A stretch of DNA of 64,000 nucleotides from an uncultured Psychroserpens sp. (GTDB lineage: Bacteria; Bacteroidota; Bacteroidia; Flavobacteriales; Flavobacteriaceae): NCBI GenBank assembly GCA_947488655.1, contig CANKZZ010000001.1:248001-312000 (forward strand), in the 5' to 3' direction. Positions 4,933 through 56,824 of the stretch are shown one piece after another; the stretch's first letter is position 1; each line of letters starts with the position of its first letter. The notes below the pieces were generated by a model. The model was not told the origin of the DNA, searched no databases, and worked only from the letters and a program-made list of their open reading frames with translations. The position numbers and the translations under genes were made by a program.

Positions 4933-5454
4933 CTATTCTTCTTTTTTATAGGCATCATTAAGGCCTTTTAAAATCTCATCAGAGATATCACTTACTTCTT
5001 CACCATACATGACAGTACTAGTTAAATCGCTGGTTCCAAATATAAAACTGTAACCATTTGTTTTACCGTAGTTTTCTACATAAGTTTTCATTGTTGACAT
5101 CACACTATCCATTTCTTTAGAAAAAGCCTGTTGTAATTGTTGCTGCTCAAATTGAAGTTGTTGTTGTAAAACTTGACTCTTTTGATTAAATGCTTGACCT
5201 TGCTCTTGCTGTTTTGCTTGAGACATTTTTGAAGCTGCCATTTGAAATTGCTGATATTCTAATTGAAACGCTTTCCCAATACTATCAGATTTTTTATTAA
5301 AATTATCTTCTCTGTCTTTAAATTTTGCCTCTATGTCAATTTTTTCTTGGTAATCATTTATTACTTCAGATCTATTAACAAAGGCCATTTTTTTCTGTTC
5401 TTGACATGATGCCAAAAGAAGTACAAGTGAAAGTACTGCTACTATTTTTTTCAT
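4933..5454 (-). CDS. OmpH/Skp-family lipoprotein
   Basis: The chosen ATG at 5454 gives a 173-residue protein with a clean lipoprotein signal (LSLVLLLASC); a longer reading frame from 5517 would put a meaningless stretch before it. After FVNRSEVINDYQEK comes a long Gln-rich helical region (residues about 45-125), then a YGKTNGYSFIFGTSDLTSTV segment. This is the Skp/OmpH layout: a coiled-coil chaperone that holds unfolded outer-membrane proteins in the periplasm. Here it appears lipid-anchored. A TACATTTG box lies 25 bases upstream of the ATG. Confidence 0.85.
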   Translation of the reverse strand: MKKIVAVLSLVLLLASCQEQKKMAFVNRSEVINDYQEKIDIEAKFKDREDNFNKKSDSIGKAFQLEYQQFQMAASKMSQAKQQEQGQAFNQKSQVLQQQLQFEQQQLQQAFSKEMDSVMSTMKTYVENYGKTNGYSFIFGTSDLTSTVMYGEEVSDISDEILKGLNDAYKKEE

Positions 5455-5478
5455 TTTTTGAATTTTAGTTATTTTCTG

Positions 5479-5486
5479 CAAATGTA
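5479..5486 (-). promoter_or_regulatory. Bacteroidota-type -7 element before the OmpH-like gene
   Basis: The minus strand reads TACATTTG, a full match to TAnnTTTG, 25 bases before the chosen ATG. It also argues for that start over the longer frame. No convincing -33 TTTG is seen. Confidence 0.4.
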
Positions 5487-5671
5487 GTAAAGTGAAAGAA
5501 TTTATGTTAAAAAACATACTATTTAAATTATTAATAGTAATTAGAATAATTATTTTTAATATCTATTACAAAAGGTTTATATAAATAGTCCTAGATAATT
5601 ACTTCTTACTTACTTAATAGCATTACATCGTTCTCATTAAGAAAACCTCTTAAATCGCTTAAAAATGCGTT

Positions 5672-6547
5672 TTACTGCTTTTTTATGATATAAATGAGCG
5701 ATGAATACTCTCCAGAGCGCTTTGCCTTTCTATTTGAGGTCCATCCTATCCAAAATGACTTAAAGGGATTCATGGATCCGTTTTTATATTTTTCAGAAAG
5801 TAGCGATACATAATATGAATCAAAAATCATAGGTTCGGTTTTAACAACTGTCATGTCTTTTGTTGCTACTAATCTCGAAATTGAGGTTTGAGAAAAATGC
5901 CATAAATGTCTTGGCACATCAAAAGCTGCCCAAAAGTTTTTATAATATTTTGCATCATAGCTTTTATAATTTGGAACAGCTATTACTAATCGTCCATTTG
6001 GTTTTAATAGTGACTCAAATATTTCTATGTGAGATTCTAATTTTGGTAAATGTTCTAAAACATGCCAAAGCGTAATTATATCAAAACTTAGTGGTTCTAA
6101 TTTTAATAAATGATCAATATCAAAAACTGAATCATCAGATTTTTGATTAGCAATTGCTCTCGCGTTTTCGTTGGGTTCAATTCCAAAAACTTTCCAATGA
6201 TTATCTTTAGCAACTTTTAAAAAATCACCAGTACCACATCCAACATCTAGTAATTTTTTTTCTTCGGAAGTTGACCTCTCTGCATCTTTCTTTACTAGTC
6301 CATTAATCAACTTTAATTTTCTATTAAGTGCAATACCTTTAATAAAATGATATGCTTTTTCAAATAGATTACGTTTAGCACCTGTATGAGAAATGTAATC
6401 GTCACTCTGGTAATATGCTCCTAATTTATCTTCGGAAGGTTGCGGATGGGTTTCGAGAAAATCAAATTCTTTATTATAAATCAACTCAAATTTTTCTCCT
6501 GAAACGGAGTGATCTTTGACATTTAAATAAGGTGATTTTTTATTCAT
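5672..6547 (-). CDS. Class I SAM-dependent methyltransferase
   Basis: The 291-residue protein contains the S-adenosylmethionine-binding motif LLDVGCGTGDFL (residues about 98-109), then GIEPNENARAIA and the post-I region DIITLWHVLEHL, all typical of the Methyltransf_23/UbiG-like fold. The N-terminal part (LETHPQPSEDKLGAYYQSDD) is common in Bacteroidota proteins annotated as methyltransferases acting on lipids or glycans. The substrate is unknown. No operon partner is visible: the gap to mnmG holds dispersed repeats and a parS-like site. Confidence 0.85.
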   Translation of the reverse strand: MNKKSPYLNVKDHSVSGEKFELIYNKEFDFLETHPQPSEDKLGAYYQSDDYISHTGAKRNLFEKAYHFIKGIALNRKLKLINGLVKKDAERSTSEEKKLLDVGCGTGDFLKVAKDNHWKVFGIEPNENARAIANQKSDDSVFDIDHLLKLEPLSFDIITLWHVLEHLPKLESHIEIFESLLKPNGRLVIAVPNYKSYDAKYYKNFWAAFDVPRHLWHFSQTSISRLVATKDMTVVKTEPMIFDSYYVSLLSEKYKNGSMNPFKSFWIGWTSNRKAKRSGEYSSLIYIIKKQ

Positions 6548-53202: not shown

Positions 53203-53406
53203 TTAAAACCCAGACATTAAAGCACCACATACTCCTAAGCTTATAATAGTATAAACTATGGCAATAATAAAAAGAACTTTAGCTGCTTTTTTGTTTTTTC
53301 TATAAACTGCAATTCCAATTATTGTTAATAAAACTCCTGGACCAAACATGATAAATAAAATCATGATTAATAATCCGCTAAAATCCATATTTGGTGATAA
53401 AAGCAT
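53203..53406 (-). CDS. Small membrane protein, function unknown
   Basis: The 67-residue frame has two hydrophobic segments (about 8-28 and 42-60) separated by YRKNKKAAK. A second methionine (position 53388, MDFSGLLIM) may be the real start. No family is recognised. It follows the 55-residue membrane protein gene on the same strand about 54 bases away, and both lie after the radical SAM gene. Confidence 0.6.
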   Translation of the reverse strand: MLLSPNMDFSGLLIMILFIMFGPGVLLTIIGIAVYRKNKKAAKVLFIIAIVYTIISLGVCGALMSGF

Positions 53407-53459: not shown

Positions 53460-53627
53460 TTAGATGATGACAATACCTAAAATTATTTTACTTCGTTTTT
53501 TGTGCTCTTTATATTGAATCAACCCAATGATAAATAATAGAAAAGGAATGATGAACATAAATATAAAAACGATAATCATCAAGGTTAAAGCATAACCATC
53601 GCTTCTATCTTGAATTAAAGATATCAT
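53460..53627 (-). CDS. 55-residue membrane protein overlapping the radical SAM gene
   Basis: The minus strand from 53627 reads MISLIQDRSDGYALTLMIIV and continues with a hydrophobic helix (about 14-39), then a charged tail ending in SKIILGIVII. The ATG overlaps the stop of the radical SAM gene in the sequence ATGA, the classical form of translational coupling, which strongly supports a real gene. No family is recognised. It may anchor or regulate the enzyme. Confidence 0.6.
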   Translation of the reverse strand: MISLIQDRSDGYALTLMIIVFIFMFIIPFLLFIIGLIQYKEHKKRSKIILGIVII

Positions 53628-55018
53628 TTAATTTCATTTCTCAGTTCTTCTAACTTTGCTTTTTTATCATCACGATAAAACAAATTCATCGTTTCAAAAG
53701 GGATAATTTTATTGTCTTTATCTACAATATGAACACATGATTTTTTAATCGCTCTCACATCAAAATTATATGCATCTATAAATTGCATTATGATGATGCG
53801 AAATAAATTATCATAACCCAACTCTGGCGCATCAATATTTGGTAAACAGCACATAATAGATTTTAAATTCTCTTCTGCTTTTTCTACGGAATTTCCTGTA
53901 CTAAACAATTCAATCATTTTGCCATGAAGTTGTTCGTCTTGCTCGTAAATTATGGTATTCTTGCTATTATCTAATAAATCATTTGGGTTGATATAGCGCG
54001 TTAGAGGAAACACTTCATCTTCCAATTTTAAAGCATAACCCATAACTAAAGCGTCAGGATTACAAGGCACAGGTAATAAATCATCACTATTAAAAATAGT
54101 AGTCTGTTCCATGATTTTACGACGCACTTCTGTTAACGTCATGCGATCTGTTTCTGGATTAAAATTCTCCAAACGACCTGCAATTTGAGTTGGCTGAAAC
54201 GTGACACCTCTAATACATTTCTGCTTTAAGGCATAATCTATAATTTTCCCAATTTCGCCATCATTTAATCCTTTTTGAAGCGTTACAACCAAAGTTGTAG
54301 ACAGATTTAATTGGTTGAGGTTATTAATAGCTTGCTTTCTAATATCATTTAAATCGGCACCTCTTAATTCTCGAAGCACACTATTTTCAAACGAATCAAA
54401 CTGAAGATAGATCTCAAAATCTGGAGCATACGTTTTTAATCGCTCTGCAAAAGCAAAATCTTTTGCAATTTTAATTCCGTTGGTATTGAGCATTACATGT
54501 CTAATAGGTAATGTTTTTACATAATCCATAATTTCCCAAAACTGAGGATGAATTGTTGGTTCTCCTCCCGAAATTTGTACTACATCAGGTTCCTTTTCGT
54601 TTCTCACGATAGTATCTAACATGGCTTTAACTTCATCTAAAGTACGATGACGACCATACGTTGGTGACGAGCCAGCATAACACGTTGGGCACGTTAAATT
54701 ACAACGATCTGTAACCTCAACAACGGTTAAGCAAGAATGTTGCTCGTGGTCTGGACACAAACCACAATCATAAGGACACCCATAATCGGTTTTTGTATTA
54801 AACGTATACGGTGTTTCACTTGGTTTGTTGTAATTTCTAATGTTTTTATAGTACTCAATATCATCTGCAATGAGTACTTTAGAATTGCCATGCTCTTTGC
54901 AACGTTTGAGCATGTACACGTTTCCATTTTCAAAAACGATTTTGGCATCAACACGTCGTAAACACTCATGACACAAGCTTAACGTAAAATCGTAATAGGT
55001 ATAATTTCTAACTGGCAT
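53624..55018 (-). CDS. Radical SAM protein similar to the tetraether synthase (MJ0619-like) family
   Basis: The 464-residue protein has a Cys-rich N-terminus (C16, C19 and C40, ribbon-like), then YGCPYDCGLCPDHEQHSC (C81, C85, C88, C96) and VVEVTDRCNLTCPTC with the radical SAM cluster at C106, C110 and C113. The CPYDCGLCPDH stretch before the core is what I recall from archaeal MJ0619-type enzymes, which join lipid chains into tetraethers and were earlier linked to pterin methylation. ISGGEPTIHPQFW is present. Its start overlaps the Lgt-like gene by 11 bases, pointing to joint lipid chemistry. The exact reaction is unknown. Confidence 0.85.
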   Translation of the reverse strand: MPVRNYTYYDFTLSLCHECLRRVDAKIVFENGNVYMLKRCKEHGNSKVLIADDIEYYKNIRNYNKPSETPYTFNTKTDYGCPYDCGLCPDHEQHSCLTVVEVTDRCNLTCPTCYAGSSPTYGRHRTLDEVKAMLDTIVRNEKEPDVVQISGGEPTIHPQFWEIMDYVKTLPIRHVMLNTNGIKIAKDFAFAERLKTYAPDFEIYLQFDSFENSVLRELRGADLNDIRKQAINNLNQLNLSTTLVVTLQKGLNDGEIGKIIDYALKQKCIRGVTFQPTQIAGRLENFNPETDRMTLTEVRRKIMEQTTIFNSDDLLPVPCNPDALVMGYALKLEDEVFPLTRYINPNDLLDNSKNTIIYEQDEQLHGKMIELFSTGNSVEKAEENLKSIMCCLPNIDAPELGYDNLFRIIIMQFIDAYNFDVRAIKKSCVHIVDKDNKIIPFETMNLFYRDDKKAKLEELRNEIK

Positions 55019-55751
55019 TCTTTAGTTTTTGATAGATGAACGGACTATAATACAACCAACAAATTACACATAATAGTTGAATTGTGCTCAGTCCAAGGAC
55101 GTGAAACACATTCGGTTTTATAAATTCGATACAGAATCGAAACCCGAAATAAAGGAGCATAAAAATCTTAAAAAGTTCACCGTTTTTTAAGTTGGCACGT
55201 TTATGAAGCTGTTGTAATCCAATAAATAAAATTATTAGAAAAACCAGTTCGTAAAGTGAAGTAGGATGTCGTTGGAGACCATCTCCCAAATCCATCCCAA
55301 AATATGAAGTTGTTACATTTCCGTAGGTAAACTCATTAATGCCAGAAAGAAAACAACCAATACGACCAATAAAAATGCCCAAAATAATTGGTAGCACAAA
55401 CAAATCTCCAGAAGAGGTTTTCTCACCAATAATTTTTTTGGCAACTTCAACACCTAGCAAACCACCAAATAATCCGCCCATTATGGTTTTTGTATTAAGG
55501 AGTTGAATAATATTTTCTTCGGAAAAATCAACTAAAGGGTTTTCGAGAATTCCAATTAAACGCGAGCCAATCAAAGCACCTAAAGCAGCTCCAAGAATGA
55601 TAGATAAACGATTTCCAGAATTGATATGATCTTTAGATTTGCGTCTTAAAATCACGTAATACCTAAAGGCAATAAAAAATGCGAGATACTCTAACACTAA
55701 GTGAATATTGATAGAAATACCGAAGAATTCAGGTTGAAAAGGTATTTGCAA
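55008..55751 (-). CDS. Lgt-like prolipoprotein diacylglyceryl transferase family protein
   Basis: The conserved part begins at LQIPFQPEFFGISINIHLVL; its first codon is a TTG at 55751, giving 247 residues. A frame from an ATG at 55886 would run into dusB. About seven membrane segments are visible. Lgt landmarks are FIGRIGCFLSG (about 128-138) and RHPTSLYE (about 161-168). The canonical Asn and Glu of GRIGNFINGE are replaced (Cys and Ile), so it may not modify prolipoproteins; it is a divergent member. It overlaps the radical SAM gene by 11 bases. Confidence 0.75.
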   Translation of the reverse strand: MQIPFQPEFFGISINIHLVLEYLAFFIAFRYYVILRRKSKDHINSGNRLSIILGAALGALIGSRLIGILENPLVDFSEENIIQLLNTKTIMGGLFGGLLGVEVAKKIIGEKTSSGDLFVLPIILGIFIGRIGCFLSGINEFTYGNVTTSYFGMDLGDGLQRHPTSLYELVFLIILFIGLQQLHKRANLKNGELFKIFMLLYFGFRFCIEFIKPNVFHVLGLSTIQLLCVICWLYYSPFIYQKLKNAS

Positions 55752-55825
55752 AGAGTAAATTATTTTAGTTATAAGTGATGAAGATACACAATTACCTAAA
55801 AAGCTGTAATTTTGCGCAAAATAAA

Positions 55826-56824
55826 ATGAGTTTGGTAAAAATAGGCGATATAGAACTTCCAGATTTTCCGTTGTTGTTAGCTCCAATGGAAGATGTTAGC
55901 GATCCACCGTTTCGTGCATTGTGCAAGGAGCAAGGTGCAGATGTGGTGTATACAGAGTTTATTTCTAGCGAAGGCTTAATTCGTGATGCTGCAAAAAGCG
56001 TCATGAAACTAGATATCTACGAAAAAGAACGACCTGTAGGCATTCAGATTTTCGGGGCTAATATGGAGAGCATGCTTCAAACCATTGATATTGTTGAGCG
56101 TTCTAATCCAGATATTATAGATATTAATTTTGGTTGCCCAGTAAAAAAAGTGGTGAGTAAAGGTGCAGGAGCAGGAATTTTGAAAGACATCTGCTTAATG
56201 GAACAACTCACTGCCGAAATGGTAAAACGCACCAATTTGCCTGTTACCGTAAAAACACGTTTAGGTTGGGATCACGACTCTATAAAAATTGTTGAGGTTG
56301 CTGAGCGATTGCAAGATGTTGGTTGTAAAGCCATTTCAATTCACGGTAGAACACGTGCACAAATGTATAAAGGTGATGCAGATTGGAAACCTATTGCAGC
56401 TGTAAAAAATAACCCAAGAATGCATATTCCTGTGTTTGGAAATGGAGATGTAAACACTCCAGAACGCGCTATGGAAATGCGAGATAGTTATGGACTTGAT
56501 GGTTGTATGATTGGTCGTGCAACAATTGGTAACCCTTGGTTTTTTAAACAAGTAAAACACTTTTTTGAAACGGGAGAGCATTTAGATCCAATTTCTATGG
56601 CAGAACGAGTGGATGCTGCTCGTCGTCATCTTCAAATGTCAATTGACTGGAAAGGTGAAAAGCTTGGTGTTTTTGAAACCAGACGTCATTACACCAATTA
56701 TTTTAAAGGGATTCCTAATTTTAAAGAGCACAGAATGAAAATGGTGACTAGTGACGACTCTAAAGATGTTTTTGCTGCTTTTGATGAGGTTCTAGAATTG
56801 TTTGGAGATCATCAGTTCTCTTAA
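55826..56824 (+). CDS. dusB: tRNA-dihydrouridine synthase
   Basis: The ATG at 55826 (MSLVKIGDIELPDFPLLLAP) is preferred over one at 55775. The 332-residue protein has the FMN-dependent core: LAPMEDVSDPPFRALCKEQGAD, DINFGCPVKKVVSKGAGA with the catalytic Cys, and VKTRLGW, ISIHGRTRAQMY and GNGDV. Dus enzymes reduce uridines in tRNA. The gene is divergent from the Lgt-like gene. Confidence 0.95.
   Translation: MSLVKIGDIELPDFPLLLAPMEDVSDPPFRALCKEQGADVVYTEFISSEGLIRDAAKSVMKLDIYEKERPVGIQIFGANMESMLQTIDIVERSNPDIIDINFGCPVKKVVSKGAGAGILKDICLMEQLTAEMVKRTNLPVTVKTRLGWDHDSIKIVEVAERLQDVGCKAISIHGRTRAQMYKGDADWKPIAAVKNNPRMHIPVFGNGDVNTPERAMEMRDSYGLDGCMIGRATIGNPWFFKQVKHFFETGEHLDPISMAERVDAARRHLQMSIDWKGEKLGVFETRRHYTNYFKGIPNFKEHRMKMVTSDDSKDVFAAFDEVLELFGDHQFS

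Follow-up and report, generated by a model that had tools for sequence, protein, structure and literature searches.

The bacterial enzyme Mss is a radical S-adenosylmethionine (SAM) enzyme. It is named as an enzyme for coupled lipid tails in PMC11868695 (papers given by PMC number are cited throughout from excerpts of their text), and its likeness to the system reported here is by description alone. Tes (GDGT-MAS; MJ0619, NCBI model NF045702) is a tail-coupling enzyme that binds lipid tails and whose cofactor sites have been described (PMC9433317), and bacterial Tes homologs are in print as sequences (PMC8941075) and in a sequence-similarity network (PMC9433317), listed as possible, unproven makers of branched glycerol dialkyl glycerol tetraethers (brGDGTs) (PMC8941075, PMC11868695). 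In the diacylglyceryl transferase Lgt of Escherichia coli, Y26, H103, R143, N146, G154 and R239 are required (PMC13251419; PMC4728403), with R143 and R239 lining the donor site (PMC4728403) and H103 not conserved across all phyla (PMC13251419; PMC4728403). Distant Lgt homologs with Cys at N146 include MSMEG_5408, whose activity is presumed low, and Leptospira Lgt, which functions partially in E. coli (PMC13251419). Here we analyzed a 64,000-nucleotide stretch of DNA (the window; contig CANKZZ010000001.1, positions 248,001 to 312,000) from an uncultured Psychroserpens sp. of the Flavobacteriaceae, in which one operon encodes a radical SAM protein related to Tes, a divergent Lgt paralog and a small membrane protein with a conserved C-terminal cysteine, and which we tentatively read as a lipid-tailoring system.

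According to the open reading frame (ORF) list of the window, the operon runs on the minus strand from the Lgt-like gene through the radical SAM gene and a 55-residue ORF to a 67-residue ORF (Table 1). The initial annotation, made from the window sequence, had described three genes overlapping in series, and the coordinates bear this out: the Lgt-like and radical SAM genes share 11 bases, and the latter overlaps the 55-residue ORF through ATGA. The 67-residue ORF, a fourth gene absent from that annotation, starts 53 bases past the 55-residue ORF. Against nine relatives, the ratio of nonsynonymous to synonymous divergence (dN/dS) was 0.03-0.04 for the radical SAM gene (9/9), 0.08-0.13 for the Lgt-like gene (8/9, with one comparison saturated) and 0.12-0.32 for the 67-residue ORF (9/9), several of the underlying dS values being above 1. 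The operon is confirmed as real. A PHROGs search with three window proteins returned no match.

The linkage between the two enzyme genes is conserved well beyond the window. An Lgt-like gene lies upstream of the radical SAM gene, on the same strand and within 3.5 kb, in 117 of 127 distinct loci of the window's type (main type), overlapping it in 58, separated by up to 50 bases in 30 and by 51-400 bases in 13, and lying farther away in 16, many of them from Hymenobacter. Among the other ten loci, one has a downstream Lgt-like gene, five are cut by contig ends and four have none in the available flank. Two of these four belong to genomes (G089 and G325) that carry a strong Lgt-like gene (204 and 182 bits) on a different contig, so that co-occurrence outlasts close linkage. 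The initial annotation had proposed a co-occurrence survey, and this gave a uniform result in 57 related genomes, the window's own included: 12 contain both genes and 45 neither, with strong Lgt-like matches (220 bits or more, the next best scoring 45) in exactly the 12 genomes with a strong radical SAM match, although shared ancestry means that these are not 57 independent tests. The pair is patchy even within one genus (8/23). Radical SAM matches at E <= 1e-25 occur in 34 of 395 genomes of the phylum, 28 of them with at least 58% identity, and in 38 of 299 genomes of the family, including one (G505) with a fragment only. This remnant (G505:C7:758700-758981) spans 94 residues at 76% identity and contains one stop; its genome has no strong Lgt-like match, which suggests joint loss of the pair.

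The radical SAM protein matches the Pfam Radical_SAM family (E 4e-24) and carries the HMPTM zinc ribbon as its N-terminal domain. Its best NCBIfam model is TrsS (NF045646; 325.9 bits, cutoff 490), followed by the Tes model (288.4 bits, cutoff 450), both scores being below cutoff; the one sister-type protein scanned against TrsS (locus L101) also falls below that cutoff. The best Protein Data Bank match is MJ0619 (7tol; E 1.1e-68, or 2.1e-97 with a profile of seven relatives). The AlphaFold2 model, with a predicted local distance difference test (pLDDT) score of 87.4 and values below 50 solely at residues 373-400, aligns in Foldseek with 7tom (E 3.1e-39, TM-scores 0.80/0.75, 30% identity in the structural alignment). 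The cysteine block CPYDCGLCPDH ahead of the CNLTCPTC core, on which the initial annotation had based a link to MJ0619, is present at residues 81-91 and 106-113, and C81, C85, C88, H91, H94 and C96 are invariant in all 55 aligned proteins (an alignment that excludes L110), C96 being additional relative to MJ0619. The protein keeps the rubredoxin-like Cys3His site of MJ0619, its N-auxiliary CX3CX2C motif with His, its radical SAM CX3CX2C motif and the positions of Arg210, Gln268 and Arg275; cofactor-site Cys positions are kept in 55/55 sequences and the His36 equivalent in 52/55, while Met439 is retained in the window protein and in 34 of 46 main-type sequences.

The C-terminal cluster region departs from this pattern. 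MJ0619 C456 is retained as C428, but C455, C470 and Tyr459 correspond to S427, E442 and I431, and none of the three is retained in any of the 55 aligned proteins. Instead, C319 is invariant and preceded by a shorter loop than in Tes, and a CC pair at 390-391, which falls inside the low-confidence stretch of the model, is present in 47/55 sequences; these cysteines may form the C-terminal cluster. A sulfur of the MJ0619 cluster has been proposed to hold the tail intermediate, and with this region altered the chemistry of the window enzyme may differ from that of Tes. In the inferred tree the main type (53 rows, among them the window protein), the sister type (9 rows) and Tes (three rows) separate with ultrafast bootstrap support of 100 each, the Tes clade (MJ0619, L104 and L105) and the main-type clade both at 100/100, on a tree limited by just three Tes rows, flagged long branches and a drawn midpoint root; the nearest named sequence is that of an uncultured Winogradskyella (L176). 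Scores against the Tes model agree with this division, with 254-306 bits for seven other main-type and sister-type proteins, 494 and 442 bits for the Tes-type L104 and L105, and 149 bits for the deep-branching L103. Given the sub-cutoff score, the separate clade and the different cysteines, the protein was not classed as Tes. The connection to MJ0619 that had been proposed thus stands as homology, fold and most cofactor sites, and not as membership of the Tes family.

The upstream partner, which the initial annotation had assigned to the diacylglyceryl transferase fold, indeed scores 95.9 bits against Pfam LGT (PF01790; cutoff 24.9, E 3e-27), and its AlphaFold2 model (pLDDT 94.1) has E. coli Lgt (5azb) as its sole Foldseek match at E <= 0.001 (E 1.2e-5, TM-scores 0.57/0.51). 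Against the NCBI equivalog TIGR00544 it remains at 49.3 bits, below the cutoff of 118.9. A canonical Lgt is encoded elsewhere in the genome, on contig C6 (197 bits versus 96 for the operon copy), which makes the operon copy a second, divergent member. The signature Asn and Glu were correctly noted as missing: the signature reads GRIGCF, with Cys133 at the position of Asn146, and Ile occupies the E151 position in the alignment, with a Glu two residues further on. R130 and C133 are invariant among 51 aligned Lgt-like sequences, and the invariant R130 and R205 align with E. coli R143 and R239; the G154 equivalent and the RHPxxLYE region are also retained. H103 is replaced by Met, Y26 by His or Leu depending on the alignment, and the periplasmic head is shorter than in Lgt. 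Given the sub-cutoff TIGR00544 score and the replaced H103 and N146, it was not classed as a true Lgt. MSMEG_5408 and Leptospira Lgt share the Asn-to-Cys replacement, but the excerpt of PMC13251419 mentions no link between these homologs and a radical SAM gene.

The invariant Cys in the Lgt-like signature and the Pfam name of the radical SAM N-terminal domain would both accord with a different account. Here the radical SAM protein would methylate lipid tails or a pterin, or catalyze some other reaction than coupling; the lipid would be supplied or sequestered by the Lgt-like protein; and the conserved cysteine of the small protein would serve as a redox or metal site. MJ0619 was itself reportedly assigned earlier as a pterin methyltransferase, whence the HMPTM domain name. 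Later work showed that it couples lipid tails (PMC9433317), and we consider this account improbable.

The third component is the 67-residue protein. The 55-residue ORF, which had been taken for it, is a shortened tandem paralog of the 67-residue protein that ends before the Cys and has best matches in relatives of 32-61% identity where found, and it was ruled out on these grounds; in a close relative (L013) the equivalent 70-residue ORF also lacks the Cys, and the first ORF of other close relatives (L012, L014 and L015) retains it. ORFs directly 3' of the radical SAM gene seem unrelated between phyla, and their common feature is a Cys ending the last transmembrane (TM) helix. No Pfam family scored above cutoff for the 67-residue protein or for eight small-protein examples. 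A small TM ORF lies just 3' of the radical SAM gene in 108 of the 124 distinct loci whose downstream sequence reaches 400 bases or more, and a Cys occurs within the last 30 residues of the first such ORF in 106 of the 108, or in all 108 when the next ORF is included (118/120 and 120/120 without deduplication). Under a stricter Cys rule, 115 of the 120 undeduplicated loci pass. Four truncated loci had been dropped before the set of 139; 127 and 124 count loci after removal of duplicates sharing a radical SAM protein, while 139/120 and 115/120 retain them. Eleven of the remaining 16 loci have a C-terminal-Cys protein elsewhere in the cassette, for a total of 119/124: between the two enzyme genes (L021, L056, L057, L095, L107), upstream of the Lgt-like gene (L134, L157, L158, L184), as a long version downstream (L186), or, in a Planctomycetales locus (L187, 9205-10746), as three tandem TM-Cys-ended proteins between the enzyme genes. 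In a control set that counts two loci twice, the rule is passed by 77 of 95 same-strand TM ORFs in cassettes, by none of 28 opposite-strand ORFs and by 42 of 690 ORFs from elsewhere. The TM test is crude (19-residue mean hydropathy above 1.6), and topology derives from the positive-inside rule alone.

The sequence surrounding the Cys is strongly patterned. In 108 non-redundant proteins, obtained after removal of 12 repeated C-terminal windows, position -2 is Gly, Ala or Ser in 101, positions -11 to -1 are free of Asp, Glu, Lys and Arg in 107, the last Lys or Arg stands 16-24 residues ahead of the Cys in 105, the net charge of positions -32 to -13 is at least +1 in 104 and the tail charge is 0 in 94. 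The motif, mostly [L/F/N][G/A/S]x-Cys after a positively charged loop and a hydrophobic stretch, is followed by just 3-22 residues, and with Ile, Val or Thr often at -1 it is no canonical N-terminal lipobox cleaved by LspA. The Cys holds the position of a lipoprotein Cys relative to the signal helix, yet near the protein C-terminus. This charge pattern agrees with a Cys on the outer face, the side on which Lgt acts. The small proteins vary in the length and TM number of their N-terminal parts, leaving the Cys end as the constant part, which would make it the natural acceptor for the Lgt-like enzyme. In a Thalassarchaeaceae locus (L160), the 161-residue ORF just after the radical SAM gene carries in its N-terminal part a segment resembling an EF-hand (E 8e-6, slightly short of the Pfam cutoff), as if a soluble cargo were attached to a Cys-ended membrane tail.

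Small, fast-evolving and sometimes tandem putative substrates adjoining a radical SAM gene (two in the window, one of them lacking the Cys, two in L114 and three in L187) might also suggest that the radical SAM enzyme modifies the small protein itself, in a maturation akin to that of ribosomally synthesized and post-translationally modified peptides (RiPPs) or of membrane proteins, with the Lgt-like protein as membrane partner. The Cys is predicted to be extracytoplasmic, however, a single TM-end Cys is the only fixed feature found, and the nearest match of the radical SAM protein is a lipid enzyme (236 bits for Tes versus 22 for the RiPP maturase SkfB in the Protein Data Bank search), so that we regard such a role as quite unlikely.

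Sister-type operons present the same elements in another setting. Their order is radical SAM, ICMT, DUF4395, Lgt-like and small protein (L100-L102, L108-L118), with a membrane methyltransferase of the ICMT/PEMT family, which in L118 shares one ORF with DUF4395, and with a GCC motif in the Lgt-like protein; neither the ICMT-family protein nor DUF4395 is seen in the window operon. The small Cys protein is present in all nine distinct sister-type loci with sequence there (L100, L101, L102, L110, L111, L113, L114, L115 and L118), as two tandem proteins in L114. In L110 the radical SAM frame (4947-6317) contains an in-frame TAA and a small insertion inside CPxDCG, indicating a broken gene or an assembly fault; as the stop is TAA beside an insertion, it provides no evidence for selenocysteine in TrsS.

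Tes-type loci bear on a further explanation, that the operon makes free membrane-spanning lipids, the radical SAM enzyme coupling phospholipid tails as Tes or Mss would, the Lgt-like protein editing the headgroup and the small protein serving as anchor or chaperone. The match of the radical SAM protein to Tes in homology and fold speaks for it, as does the proposal of bacterial Tes homologs as brGDGT makers (PMC8941075; PMC11868695). We nevertheless judge it rather unlikely, given the separate clade, the altered cysteines of the C-terminal cluster region and the fact that a mere anchor would need no conserved Cys in one fixed place. Furthermore, L104 and L105 have no Lgt-like gene in the sequence available at the locus, and L104 no small Cys protein under the rule, L105 having one 60-residue ORF that passes it.

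A shared lipid role for the radical SAM and Lgt-like proteins would be the most economical reading of these sequences. In the form that we favor, tentatively, the operon encodes a three-component system in which the Lgt-like enzyme lipidates the Cys of the small protein and the radical SAM enzyme remodels or couples lipid tails. The small multi-TM protein, as acceptor, would present its Cys at the extracytoplasmic end of the last helix in a lipobox-like setting, and the Lgt-like enzyme would bind phosphatidylglycerol, the presumed donor, through its two conserved arginines and move the diacylglyceryl group to the Cys as a thioether. Canonical lipoboxes have small residues at -1 because LspA requires them; in the small proteins -1 is not confined to such residues, as expected if an Lgt-type step alone takes place. 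A signal peptidase II step would be unneeded, so that the small protein would become a lipidated integral membrane protein. The Tes-like enzyme would apply 5'-deoxyadenosyl radical chemistry to unactivated lipid-tail carbons, its plausible substrate being the phosphatidylglycerol donor or the attached diacylglyceryl group, and would couple two tails or make another C-C or C-S modification before or after transfer.

Several points weigh against this reading. The radical SAM enzyme is expected to be cytosolic while the Cys is on the outer face, which leaves the order of steps unexplained. With H103 and N146 missing, the Lgt-like protein may be no transferase, and the absence of Tes C455, C470 and Tyr459 means that tail coupling cannot be assumed by analogy with Tes. 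The Cys motif departs from the canonical lipobox at -1 and is unusual in its C-terminal placement, and the Cys rule is not fully specific, since the 42 unrelated ORFs and the ORF beside L105 pass it. No such small protein was found in the sequence available at L090, L132, L164, L170 and L178, nor was one seen in the deep-branching L103, where an Lgt-like neighbor is present. The interpretation offered by the initial annotation, an unrecognized lipid modification, is partly supported: a shared lipid role remains the favored reading, and membership of the radical SAM protein in Tes is not supported.

The pair is not confined to one bacterium and is in fact widespread. A scan of named genomes gave at least 587 pattern matches, of which at least 567 were relatives, and among the best 80 of these relatives the pair was found in Paenibacillaceae, Bacillaceae, Cyanobacteria, Chloracidobacterium, Planctomycetales, Rhodocyclales/Chromatiales, Spirochaetia and the archaeal Poseidoniales/Thalassarchaeaceae. 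The higher groups with the pair include Bacteroidota, Bacilli, Cyanobacteria, Acidobacteriota, Planctomycetes, Proteobacteria and Poseidoniales archaea; several records are metagenome-assembled genomes (MAGs), for which single taxon assignments may be wrong. Within the same best 80, the cassette occurs in the named cultured genera Hymenobacter, Mucilaginibacter, Chitinophaga, Flavobacterium and Paenibacillus, which opens it to simple deletions and mass spectrometry. The archaeal glycerol-phosphate backbone enzyme is reportedly missing from Poseidoniales, whose genera almost all encode glycerol-3-phosphate dehydrogenase (PMC6461757), making a glycerol-3-phosphate lipid donor conceivable there. 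A single putative Tes homolog among 231 Marine Group II MAGs (PMC8941075) fits the cassette clade being something other than Tes.

We consider unlikely, while setting it out for its implications, a wider version in which these genes form a prokaryotic pathway of C-terminal Cys lipidation with Tes-like tail remodeling and, in sister-type operons, ICMT methylation, possibly yielding a tail-coupled or membrane-spanning protein anchor. If true, it would parallel eukaryotic CaaX processing in function, by convergence, and would be common to bacteria and Poseidoniales archaea; it would also be a protein lipidation chemistry for which we found no description in the literature searched. Both enzyme families, bacterial Tes homolog sequences and TrsS as an NCBI model are already known; the linkage of the radical SAM and Lgt-like genes and the Cys-ended small protein as third component appear to be new, and no description of the pair, or of the trio with the Cys protein, was found in titles and abstract starts of the open-licence papers listed, a negative that is weak for two of the searches, where the listing covered 15 of 60 and 10 of 1,950 papers. 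TrsS appears there, together with radical SAM, in one paper, which names it in a table; a match to 'TrsM' in PMC11588087 was discarded, the same paper having elsewhere TsrM, a different enzyme. The existence of so large a Tes-like branch, linked to an Lgt paralog and a Cys-ended membrane protein, would caution against taking every bacterial 'Tes' match as a marker of membrane-spanning lipids.

Table 1. Features of the operon in the window.
Feature	Position	Strand	Remarks
Lgt-like (PF01790) integral membrane enzyme, 247 residues	55008..55751	-	TTG start at 55751; AlphaFold2 pLDDT 94.1; Foldseek 5azb
Lgt signature core G129 R130 I131 G132 C133	55353..55367	-	E. coli GRLGN; Asn146 to Cys
Tes/TrsS-superfamily radical SAM enzyme, 464 residues, N-terminal zinc-ribbon/rubredoxin-like domain	53624..55018	-	AlphaFold2 pLDDT 87.4; Foldseek 7tom
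N-terminal auxiliary cluster motif CPYDCGLCPDHEQHSC, radical SAM protein residues 81-96	54731..54778	-	Alignment of 55
Radical SAM CX3CX2C motif, residues 106-113	54680..54703	-	55/55 aligned sequences
55-residue membrane ORF, shortened paralog of the 67-residue ORF, stops before the Cys	53460..53627	-	
67-residue two-TM protein, third core component, C-terminal lipobox-like ...IISLGVC-GALMSGF	53203..53406	-	
Conserved C-terminal Cys60 codon of the 67-residue protein	53227..53229	-	

Clusters of neighboring ORFs present in at least four loci were judged by eye and without annotation; those recurring across phyla were the radical SAM gene, the Lgt-like gene, small TM genes and shadow ORFs, and the rest, which look lineage-local or like common families, were rejected as conserved partners. 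Upstream of the Lgt-like gene, an alternative in-frame TTG at 55886 would overlap the divergent ORF 55775-56824, which we take to be dus-like.

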